The notes beneath the pieces are model-generated. The model saw nothing but the letters and a program-made list of their open reading frames with translations, searched no databases and was not told where the DNA came from. From positions 1,922,001 through 1,986,000 of the forward strand of contig NZ_CP022423.1 in the NCBI RefSeq assembly GCF_002222655.1: a stretch of DNA of 64,000 nucleotides, read 5' to 3'. Source of the stretch: Vitreoscilla filiformis. GTDB taxonomy: Bacteria > Pseudomonadota > Gammaproteobacteria > Burkholderiales > Burkholderiaceae_C. Of the stretch, positions 58,678-61,225 are shown piece by piece; position 1 is the first letter of the stretch; every line of letters starts with the position of its first letter. A program made the position numbers and the translations under genes.

Positions 58678-58721
58678 TGGTGCCCACCGACAGGAATCGA
58701 ACCTGTATCTGAGACTTAGGA
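58678..58721 (-). pseudogene. 3' half of a split tRNA-Arg(CCU)
   Basis: Read on the minus strand: TCCTAAG (loop), GTCTC (anticodon stem 3' strand), AGAT, an intact T-arm (ACAGG-TTCGATT-CCTGT), the acceptor 3' strand CGGTGGGC, and ACCA. The sequence before TCCTAAG does not form a D-arm or acceptor 5' strand. The matching 5' half is at 61028-61068. The 3' side has one extra base before CCA relative to the usual acceptor length. Confidence 0.75.
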
Positions 58722-58800: not shown

Positions 58801-58946
58801 AACTCTTAATGGAAAAATCCTTTATAGATCAACAACTTACGTCGATGTGATGTTGAGCTGATGCGCTGCCAACCCAGCGAAAGCGCCGAGCAGTCTGAAA
58901 CACCGGAAGAGCCTTTTTCATGGGCGGCCTCCGGGGGGGTATCAAG

Positions 58947-59825
58947 TTACGCGTCGGTCCCGCCCAACACGCCTTCAAGCTGCATTTCTTTCAGCACACG
59001 ATCCTGAATCGGCTGCTTGGCGGCGTTCATTTCATCGACACCCCAAGTGATGCCGACCACCGTGCGCGTGGGACGTTGGCCGGTAGGCATGTCTGCCAGC
59101 GCTACATACGCGTCGACCACGAGTTGTGGCTTGGGCGCTTCTTCGCTCTGCAGGAACGTTGCGAAGTGTTGGCCCATTGCATTGGGCACACCCGCCAAGT
59201 CGCCATAACTTGCCAGCACATCGTTGCGCTCTGGTGCTTTGCCGCCTGCGAGCAACCCGGTGCCGAACGGGCCAGGCTGCACGAGAGCGACATCGATCCC
59301 AAAGGGTGACACCTCATAGCGCAACCCCTGCACATAGCCCTCCAGAGCGTGCTTGGTTGCGCTGTAGGTCGAGAAGAATGGTGGAGAGATCTGACCGACC
59401 AGGGAGGACGTATTGATGATCAGACCAGCTTTGGCTGCGCGCATGGATGGCAACACCGCCTGCATGGTGCGGATGGCACCGTAGTAGTTGGTCTCCATTT
59501 GTTCCTTGGCCTGTGCGATGCTGAAGGCCTCGGTAATGCCAAGGTACATCACGCCCGCGTTGTTGATGAGCACATCCACCGGGCCTTGGCTCAGGATGTG
59601 CGCAAAAGCGGCTCCGACCGAGGCGTCATCGGTCACGTCCATGTCGATGACCGACACCCGGCTTGAGTACGCCTCCAACGCCGCCTTTTTGGCCGCGTTG
59701 CGCCCTTGGGCATCGCGCAGGGTCCCCCACACGCGATAGCCCCTGTCTGCGAACGCCTTGACTGCGCCTTCGCCAAAGCCGCTGCTGCACCCGGTGATCA
59801 CGACAACCTTGCTTGAACTGTTCAT
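58947..59825 (-). CDS. Short-chain dehydrogenase/reductase
   Basis: A 292-aa classical SDR. Cofactor motif TGCSSGFGEG, the NNAGVMYLG turn, catalytic Ser in NTSSLVG and YSATK are all present. It is an NAD(P)-dependent oxidoreductase of unknown substrate, probably repressed by the divergent TetR regulator. The 108-bp gap between them holds two copies of TTTCGTACCGA. Confidence 0.92.
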   Translation of the reverse strand: MNSSSKVVVITGCSSGFGEGAVKAFADRGYRVWGTLRDAQGRNAAKKAALEAYSSRVSVIDMDVTDDASVGAAFAHILSQGPVDVLINNAGVMYLGITEAFSIAQAKEQMETNYYGAIRTMQAVLPSMRAAKAGLIINTSSLVGQISPPFFSTYSATKHALEGYVQGLRYEVSPFGIDVALVQPGPFGTGLLAGGKAPERNDVLASYGDLAGVPNAMGQHFATFLQSEEAPKPQLVVDAYVALADMPTGQRPTRTVVGITWGVDEMNAAKQPIQDRVLKEMQLEGVLGGTDA

Positions 59826-59869
59826 TTCGAGAAGCTCCTGTTGATTGGCACGGAACCCATGGATCTTGA

Positions 59870-59924
59870 TTTCGTACCGAGTGGTCCGAAGCGGCGCTCA
59901 GCCTTTCGTACCGATCGGTATAAT
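59870..59924 (+). promoter_or_regulatory. Putative TetR operator and promoter
   Basis: A perfect 12-bp palindrome, TACCGATCGGTA (59909-59920), overlaps a consensus -10 box TATAAT (59919-59924) 9 nt before the regulator ATG. The direct repeat TTTCGTACCGA occurs at 59870-59880 and 59904-59914. Binding would repress the regulator and probably the divergent SDR gene. Confidence 0.65.
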
Positions 59925-59933
59925 CTGCCTGTC

Positions 59934-60533
59934 ATGAACTCGACCTCAACAAGTGCTCGTCCCGGGCGCCCCATCACTCGGAACCGGGCACATGTGCTTG
60001 AGGCGGCGATGAACGCCTATTGGCAGGACGACAGGGCCGCCATATCGGTCAACGCTGTGTGCGCGCTGGCAGGGGTCTCCAAGCCTTCGCTGTATCGTGA
60101 CTTCGGCAGTGAGGATGGGCTGACGGCTGCGGTGCTGGAGCGCTACGGGCAGACGGTGCTGGTGGGTGTCGAAGCGTTGCTCTCAAGTTCGCAGTCTTAC
60201 GGGGCCAAATTGGACGCGCTGGTCAGCTTTGCTGCCGATGATCCGCAGATGGAAGCGGGTTGCCTGTTCGTGAAGATGCGCGCCACGCGCTCTCGCTTCG
60301 GTCCGCAAACACGAGCGCTGCTGGCCGCGATGGAGAAGCACTTTCAAGCGCACTACACGCAGTTCTTCACTGACGCCGCTGCTTGCGGTGAGTGGCACGG
60401 CGGAGTTGCGACGGATCTCGCAGCCAACTACCTTCAGGAACAGATGGGCTTGGCGGTCAGCCAGCGCGCAACAGGCAAGCTGTCAGAGGCGGTGCGTGCG
60501 TTTTTGATGTTGGCGATTTCGGTGCTGCGCTGA
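59934..60533 (+). CDS. TetR-family transcriptional regulator
   Basis: A 199-aa regulator. The N-terminal HTH (about 18-65) contains ISVNAVCALAGVSKPSLYRDFGSEDGL. The ligand domain is typical of the SDR-associated group. ATG 59934 is chosen because the operator and -10 box lie just upstream. An in-frame ATG at 59841 would put the operator within the gene. It is likely to control itself and the divergent SDR gene. Confidence 0.9.
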   Translation: MNSTSTSARPGRPITRNRAHVLEAAMNAYWQDDRAAISVNAVCALAGVSKPSLYRDFGSEDGLTAAVLERYGQTVLVGVEALLSSSQSYGAKLDALVSFAADDPQMEAGCLFVKMRATRSRFGPQTRALLAAMEKHFQAHYTQFFTDAAACGEWHGGVATDLAANYLQEQMGLAVSQRATGKLSEAVRAFLMLAISVLR

Positions 60534-60579: not shown

Positions 60580-60871
60580 TGGTCCCCCCGACAGGAATCG
60601 AACCTGTATCTAGCGCTTCGTACCACTTCGGCTTTCGCCGCCGCATTGCGCGTTCGTGGTCTGGACTATGCCTTTGCCGTGGGCGTTGGACGCCGTTAGG
60701 CAGGAGCCGTCTAGTCTCTACACCTTCCCGATGTCTCGGGCTTGGCTCGGCGTTGCCACGGCGCAGGGCGCGCCAGAGGGTTCACCGACTTTGACTCCAT
60801 TCAGCCGGTGCTTTCGCTTCCGGCTGCCCATTGAAAGGAGGCGCTCGTTCTATCCATTGAACTACGGGGAG
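60580..60871 (-). tRNA. tRNA-Arg(CCU) interrupted by a group I intron
   Basis: Exons: 60871-60836 (5') and 60618-60580 (3', with encoded CCA). Joined they fold as a full tRNA: acceptor CTCCCCG/CGGGGGG, D-stem GTTC/GAAC, anticodon stem AGCGC/GCGCT with loop CUCCUAA (CCU), T-arm ACAGG/CCTGT. The 217-nt intron follows U36 of the anticodon. The gene reads AGG codons and may be the only intact tRNA-Arg(CCU) in this region. Confidence 0.93.
60619..60835 (-). ncRNA. Self-splicing group I intron (Azoarcus-type, IC3)
   Basis: The 5' site follows a U and the 3' end is G, as group I introns require. Core elements match the Azoarcus tRNA-Ile intron as I recall it: GUGGCAACGCCGAGCCAAGC (P6/P-Q side), GGUGUAGAGACUAGACGG (R, J6/7-P7), and AAGGCAUAGUCCAG (S, P7-P8 side). 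P2 and P9 are stems capped by GAAA tetraloops, suited to tertiary receptors. No open reading frame for a homing endonuclease fits in it. Confidence 0.92.
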
Positions 60872-60913: not shown

Positions 60914-60951
60914 GGGACAAATTTGGGACAGTGACATGGTCTGATGGGACA
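60914..60951. repeat. Three GGGACA direct repeats
   Basis: GGGACA at 60914-60919, 60925-60930 and 60946-60951, 77 bp from the split tRNA core repeat. The spacing resembles integrase arm-type sites, but no integrase is present. The function is unproven. Confidence 0.4.
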
Positions 60952-61027
60952 GGACGCGAAGGGAGTGTAGGGGTGTTGATCCTTTGAAAATCAATAACTT
61001 GCAGTCTTCGATTGGCCGCCAGAAACG

Positions 61028-61068
61028 CTTAGGAGGTCCCCGTTCTATCCATTGAACTACGGCGGCAC
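61028..61068 (-). pseudogene. 5' half of a split tRNA-Arg(CCU)
   Basis: On the minus strand: acceptor 5' strand GCCGCCG, TA, D-arm GTTC...GAAC, G, stem GGGAC, loop CTCCTAAG, then unrelated sequence. GGGAC pairs with GTCTC of the 3' half at 58678-58721, and the acceptor strands pair at six of seven positions. The gene therefore appears broken at the anticodon loop. Confidence 0.78.
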
Positions 61069-61134: not shown

Positions 61135-61225
61135 TGGCGGAGAGAGCGGGATTCGAACCCGCGGTGGGCTATTAACCCACACACGCTTTCCAGGCGTGCG
61201 ACTTAAACCACTCATCCATCTCTCC
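61135..61225 (-). tRNA. tRNA-Ser(GGA)
   Basis: A 91-nt class II tRNA with encoded CCA. Acceptor GGAGAGA/TCTCTCC, anticodon loop CTGGAAA (GGA), long variable arm, T-arm CGGGTTCGAATCCCG. It lies just upstream, on the same strand, of the split tRNA-Arg 5' half. Confidence 0.96.

Follow-up and report, generated by a model that had tools for sequence, protein, structure and literature searches.

An intron-bearing tRNA-Arg(CCU) between the halves of a split native gene on a putative island of Vitreoscilla filiformis

Introns of the Azoarcus type are hosted by tRNA-Ile(CAU) in Azoarcus and by tRNA-Arg(CCU) in Agrobacterium. An interrupted tRNA-Arg(CCU) is also present in a 64,000-nucleotide stretch of the genome of Vitreoscilla filiformis (the window), and it raises the question of why the only complete gene found for this tRNA should be an intron-bearing one, and how it came to its present place. 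The tRNA-Arg(CCU) introns of this type are an already known kind. Azoarcus-type tRNA introns are named from alpha- and beta-proteobacteria in passages of PMC4033280, and the tRNAscan-SE 2.0 paper reports Ile2 genes of Acidovorax and Burkholderia that contain group I introns.

The original prediction placed a 217-nt insertion directly after U36 of tRNA-Arg(CCU), and its coordinates proved correct, with the gene on the minus strand (Table 1). Judged by its sequence, the insert is an Azoarcus-type group I intron in tRNA-Arg(CCU), located after U36. It begins after a U, ends in G and contains the predicted core elements GGTGTAGAGACTAGACGG and AAGGCATAGTCCAG; the GAAA caps proposed for P2 and P9 were both seen by eye. 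The joined exons give a 75-nt tRNA with CCA, and ARAGORN allowing introns folded them into a full tRNA. In the predicted P1, CCU pairs with GGG and a U-G pair stands at the splice site. The P7 pairing and the 3'-terminal G were invariant in 17 introns. The intron is probably self-splicing. A sigma-70-like promoter beside the gene was searched for and none was found, with 0.4 expected by chance.

Table 1. Features of the intron-bearing tRNA-Arg(CCU), the split native gene and the island in the window
Feature	Position	Strand	Basis or remark
Intron-bearing tRNA-Arg(CCU), 292 nt total	60580-60871	-	Arginine tRNA for codon AGG
5' exon of tRNA-Arg(CCU), 36 nt, anticodon CCU (U36) at its end	60836-60871	-	ARAGORN with introns
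Group I intron, Azoarcus type, 217 nt, final base G	60619-60835	-	RF00028 full-length match; alignment and covariation of relatives
3' exon of tRNA-Arg(CCU), 39 nt including CCA	60580-60618	-	
Internal guide GGG, predicted P1 partner of anticodon CCU	60827-60829	-	Covariation with host triplet
P7 5' strand GACTA	60712-60716	-	Invariant in 17 introns; complementary to TAGTC at 60664-60668
P7 3' strand TAGTC	60664-60668	-	Invariant in 17 introns
Native tRNA-Arg(CCU) 5' half, ending CCTCCTAAG at attL	61028-61068	-	Similar left ends in relatives; first 1-2 bases perhaps outside the tRNA
attR: CCTAAG and native tRNA-Arg(CCU) 3' half	58678-58720	-	Joined flanks give tRNA-Arg(CCU); anticodon stem 5/5 pairs
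Putative integrase arm site GTCCCAAATTTGTCCC	60914-60929	-	107 bp from attL core
AAGTTATTGATTT motif close to attL	60988-61000	-	Shared with five further left ends at a tolerance of 2 mismatches; sporadic matches occur elsewhere
AAGTTGTTGATCT motif close to attR	58826-58838	-	
Short-chain dehydrogenase (SDR) gene between halves	58947-59825	-	PF00106, E 3.4e-45
TetR-family regulator gene between halves	59841-60533	+	PF00440, E 4.8e-7

The gene was missed by default ARAGORN, and the intron was missed by Rfam at its gathering cut-off. ARAGORN allowing introns called tRNA-Arg and an intron of 217 nt, with the register shifted. The search with RF00028, which the original prediction had proposed as a check, succeeded in part: the model matched at full length (1-253) with 23.8 bits and an E-value of 1.1e-3 for a 1,001-base stretch, below the curated score of 50 bits, which is a database cut-off and not a biological criterion, and the whole genome gave no RF00028 match at E<=0.001. 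Among 11 related Arg(CCU) intron loci, four matched at E<=0.1 (31.7-33.8 bits), seven gave nothing and none reached 50 bits. The low score of the window intron is therefore usual for the Arg(CCU) subclass. For introns with a CAU host, six of seven scored above 50 bits and one further CAU-host intron 39.9; the single Leu intron tested also exceeded 50 bits.

The assignment to an Azoarcus-type core, already made in the original prediction, drew on comparative evidence besides the full-length match. A scan of genome contigs gave at least 120 stretches, which are a sample. Of 131 intron-core matches, 23 were given no tRNA and 108 were assigned a host. The guide triplet tracked the 5' exon end in CCT-GGG (20/20), CAT-GTG (30/31) and CTT-GAG (34/36), with a covarying middle base; these three P1 classes comprise 87 of the 108, and the 21 introns with other hosts or registers lie outside the counts. 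The label Ile(CAU) corresponds to tRNA-Met(cat) of ARAGORN. When the window intron was aligned with 16 relatives in Arg(CCU), pair-keeping double changes were found in 23 of 54 predicted pairs, in a nested fold without the P3-P7 knot and with the guide paired elsewhere. Arg(CCU) introns also occur in Herbaspirillum, Ottowia, Polaromonas and cyanobacteria. Within the family, sampled by 399 genomes, eight genomes carried an intron-bearing tRNA-Arg(CCU) of the window's pattern, and the other 17 of the 25 rows were intronless by their matched letters.

Some records with the same core pattern had unusual hosts by ARAGORN: Val(CAC) at L081, a Met-like gene with a different insertion site at L077, L091, L093, L115 and L130, and Ser(UGA) at L109, L149 and L150. 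The unusual-host records include Omnitrophota, Parcubacteria and Kaiserbacteria. A viral origin of the intron tRNA was also considered and rejected, as 0 IMG/VR contigs contained the exact intron-bearing tRNA-Arg pattern; the distant phage and plasmid matches listed cover part of the query alone, within the intron core. Part of the query was matched by 1,279 plasmid records, and the 20 listed include enterobacterial plasmids with about 76% identity to a stretch of some 134 bases in the intron core. The intron-core match in E. coli plasmid pEcIMT16316 (L348) adjoins an AAA ATPase gene.

An arginine host with an Azoarcus-like core had been taken to imply movement between tRNA sites, and a phylogeny had been proposed. 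A tree of 96 introns was built, in which named relatives took the place of the Azoarcus and Agrobacterium introns themselves. In this tree, made without other hosts, GCT-register rows and identical introns, and carrying tool warnings of an unsettled bootstrap and of long branches that meet, the window intron fell within a six-row clade consisting of Arg(CCU) introns (support 98/100). Recent hopping from an Ile(CAU) site is thus unsupported, and the window intron gives no demonstration of such movement. Over the same tree, host labels required six changes (minimum 3, mean of 44 after shuffling), and four were required for the Arg(CCU) label by itself, which indicated that site switches in the wider intron family are real but rare.

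The genome had 57 Rfam tRNA matches, none of them CCU by ARAGORN, and its arginine anticodons were ACG, CCG and UCU. The ARAGORN count was 58 tRNAs, one being a tRNA-Trp truncated at a locus end. No second complete tRNA-Arg(CCU) was found in the genome with Rfam tRNA and ARAGORN, in agreement with the suggestion that the intron-bearing gene may be the sole intact copy. That splicing is consequently essential was not established: a tRNA-Arg(UCU) is present in the genome, and it could decode AGG through wobble.

The earlier reading missed that a native tRNA-Arg(CCU) is split around the intron copy. The native gene is intronless and is split at the anticodon loop; its two halves share a TCCTAAG direct repeat and lie 2,313 bp apart from core to core. 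When the halves were joined, ARAGORN read them as tRNA-Arg(CCU). The native anticodon stem, which pairs across the gap, is unlike the stem of the intron copy. An extra base was seen by eye in the acceptor stem of the native 3' half. The intron copy lies between the halves together with the SDR and TetR genes, possible cargo of the element, for which PADLOC gave no family. The G+C content was 0.595 between the halves and 0.634 in the whole window. With the integrase of genome G007 as the sole query, tblastn gave no match at E<=1 in the window island or in those of G011 and G114. We therefore regard the window island as a remnant, or as a form mobilised in trans, and not as an intact element; its presumed mobility is drawn from its relatives. 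No arm site was seen at the right side of the window island, unlike in G011 and G114. A shared chromosomal locus adjoining clpA was considered as well, and no match was obtained among 30 compared loci, of which many were only about 3 kb long. A tRNA-Ser(GGA) lies at 61135-61225, directly upstream of the split gene; part of PMC10872708 describes a Methylophilaceae island flanked by tRNA-Ser(gga) and tRNA-Arg(cct).

Ten further islands shared this plan, in which the native gene is split, the core and a putative arm site are separated by 106-118 bp and a whole replacement tRNA-Arg(CCU) is nearby. Within the family, the replacement was intron-bearing in the window (G000), G011, G114 and G147, and intronless in G007, G268, G363 and G029. 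In G494 and G565, from other families of the order, the replacement loop was recoded to TTTCCTAAA (recoded-arm replacements at L349:19526-19600 and L350:19588-19662, two genomes of other families). In addition, one IMG/VR contig (L355) carried an island resembling that of G007. Eight of the 11 islands had a core-to-arm distance of 107 bp, and the remaining distances were 106, 109 and 118 bp; the search used arm variants derived from the same island ends. Searches for orphan 5' halves used patterns that do not require a replacement, and a replacement was found within about 0.4 kb in 8/8, including G000; the other rows of these searches were intron genes, intact tRNAs and another tRNA. Right ends were located for G000, G011, G114, G007, G268, G363, G565 and G029 (on a different contig from its left end). 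That of G494 was not found within about 40 kb, and that of G147 lies off its contig. For six islands the joined flanks were submitted to ARAGORN, and tRNA-Arg(CCU) was returned in 6/6; the anticodon stem paired 5/5 in five of the six, G011 not being counted (native stem GTCTC, by eye). Halves mixed between islands paired at 1-4 of 5 positions, save for islands sharing one stem. In 11/11 islands the native 5' half was left unpaired and a separate complete copy was present, and restoration of the target from attP was not observed. As cargo, the G011 island (L212:6017-10124, in the same genus as the window genome) encodes a Ppl-like defence protein and an AlbA-domain protein, that of G114 a D12 methylase and a protein that matches DndB weakly, below the cut-off of Pfam, and that of G007 a type II restriction pair.

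A tyrosine integrase (PF00589) adjoins attR in G007. Matches to it also lie beside attR in G268 (91% identity), G363 (80%) and G029 (34%), and no match to it was found at E<=1e-3 in G494 or G565, for each of which about 40 kb was searched. Putative arm sites were present at both ends in G007, G011, G114, G268 and G363, and in the window at attL alone. By base composition, 1.8e-5 copies of the exact arm GTCCCAAATTTGTCCC are expected per 64 kb. A form two bases longer, with at most 1 mismatch, was found in two of 16 genomes of the genus, both of which carry the intron island. Among 299 family genomes the exact arm occurred at 11 sites. Three were at a split tRNA-Arg(CCU); the other eight, spread over six genomes, adjoined either tRNA-Pro(CGG) or a duplicate of its 3' half. 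This suggests that the arm goes with integrase ends. The tRNA-Pro-associated loci were L359, L360, L361, L364, L366, L367, L368 and L369. In G197 and G086, where both ends are visible, a complete tRNA-Pro stood at one end; the other had the duplicated 3' half together with an integrase-like match at 24-25% identity. Where both ends are visible, the tRNA-Pro target is restored in the usual way, whereas the tRNA-Arg(CCU) target is not.

The window intron resembles other Azoarcus-type introns in its size, its site right after the anticodon, the guide-anticodon pairing, the conserved core and the terminal G. It differs in that its host gene would be a rescue copy on an island and that the Arg(CCU) subclass scores below the Rfam cut-off. 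The island in turn resembles tRNA islands and ICEs with tyrosine integrases in targeting the anticodon loop, in its short direct repeat and putative arm sites, and in the integrase that four relatives have at one end. As described in parts of the Islander paper (PMC4383910) and of a review on archaeal tyrosine recombinases (PMC8371274), integration of such islands restores the tRNA, the target being completed from attP; in the window island the target remains in two pieces, and its place is taken by a separate, complete tRNA. Restoring islands use tRNA-Arg(CCU) too. For Variovorax prophages in tRNA-Arg(CCT), Table 2 of PMC9658991 lists att sequences that fall within the 3' portion of the gene; the target is the same and the bacteria are related, and the att position is that of target-restoring islands. 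Tycheposons likewise have a tRNA gene at their boundary and an associated tyrosine recombinase, but the sections of PMC10872708 that deal with them describe no native tRNA in two halves alongside an intron-bearing second copy. In archaea, an intron-bearing tRNA together with a fragment of the same tRNA has been explained by integration, according to passages of Sugahara 2012 (PMC3293823). The introns there are of another kind, and that of the window is a bacterial group I intron. Among open-licence PMC papers, none was found to describe islands in which tRNA-Arg(CCU) is split and replaced by a whole or an intron-bearing copy.

These observations are best explained, in our view with good confidence, by a small integrative element, either a remnant or trans-mobilised, whose target is the anticodon loop of tRNA-Arg(CCU). 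On insertion such an element would split the host gene, which would be left unrestored, and its own complete tRNA-Arg(CCU), with the intron after U36, would make up for the loss. The pre-tRNA would then splice itself: the guide GGG would pair with the anticodon CCU, guanosine would attack after U36, the terminal G would mark the 3' site, and joining of the exons would yield the sole tRNA-Arg(CCU) found in the genome. The intron anatomy, the split native gene, the common island layout and the absence of a second complete copy are read from the sequence itself, whereas splicing, expression and the integrase-driven origin of the window element are what we infer.

It could be argued that the gene is an ordinary chromosomal one, with the intron-bearing tRNA as the native gene and the nearby halves as unrelated tRNA debris. 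Five family genomes (G035, G153, G269, G304 and G366) indeed have an intron-bearing tRNA-Arg(CCU) with no split halves in the stretch covered, about 7 kb each way in three of them, about 5-7 kb in G269 and just 2.9 kb upstream in G153. However, the halves in the window rebuild a tRNA-Arg(CCU) with a stem that matches across the gap and is distinct from that of the intron copy, and the ten other islands repeat the layout and the core-arm spacing, which makes this explanation very unlikely. Another view is that the insert no longer splices, tRNA-Arg(UCU) reads AGG and the intron copy is a pseudogene. The presence of tRNA-Arg(UCU) and the low Rfam score are in its favour; against it, core positions are invariant and helices covary over the 17 introns, the exons fold as a full tRNA, and the complete replacement is kept in all 11 islands, which suggests that its loss is not readily tolerated. 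A dead intron seems improbable.

A further question is whether the intron has a role of its own. It may have been kept because it breaks the attB core between CCTCCT and AAG, so that the rescue tRNA is safe from re-targeting or from recombination with the adjacent attL. In islands with the GGGAC-type arm (GTCCCAAATTTGTCCC), the CCTCCTAAG core of the replacement was broken in 6/6, four by an intron and two by base changes in the anticodon arm (TTTCCTAAA), while it was kept in 5/5 islands with other arms (Fisher p 0.002 for arm type against core state on the assumption of independent rows, which does not hold: G000 and G011 belong to one genus, and G494 and G565 have nearly identical replacements). 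A similar idea for archaeal tRNA introns, that they prevent integration, goes back to Randau and Soll, as cited in a passage of Sugahara 2012 (PMC3293823). On the other hand, an intact core has not kept the islands with other arms from persisting, and G147 has one reversed CCTCCTAAG in the spacer beside the replacement, outside the tRNA. Intron enrichment was also weak in islands found regardless of introns, at 1/5 versus 5/392 (p 0.074), or versus 6/393 when G147 is assigned to the outside group (p 0.085). The value of 0.0002 obtained for 3/7 depends on islands that were located by way of their introns, and a strong enrichment was not established after allowing for ascertainment. A broken core is a plausible block to re-integration. 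That the intron was kept for this purpose is a possibility to which we give somewhat less than even weight. The fuller scenario is tentative and rather doubtful: an element class would destroy tRNA-Arg(CCU) on entry, and selection would have broken the integration site of the rescue tRNA, by an intron in some lineages and by loop recoding in another, leaving a tRNA that still works and is no longer an integrase target.

The island model supplies a reason for the intron-bearing tRNA being the sole complete copy. The detection results show that default ARAGORN and the Rfam cut-off miss intron-bearing tRNA genes of this type. Moreover, islands that leave their target broken and carry a replacement would be an exception to the restoration rule, and searches based on restoration could miss them. 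The old proposal that tRNA introns can be favoured because they prevent integration becomes testable in bacteria; if the fuller scenario is true, a group I intron would be a shield for its host gene.
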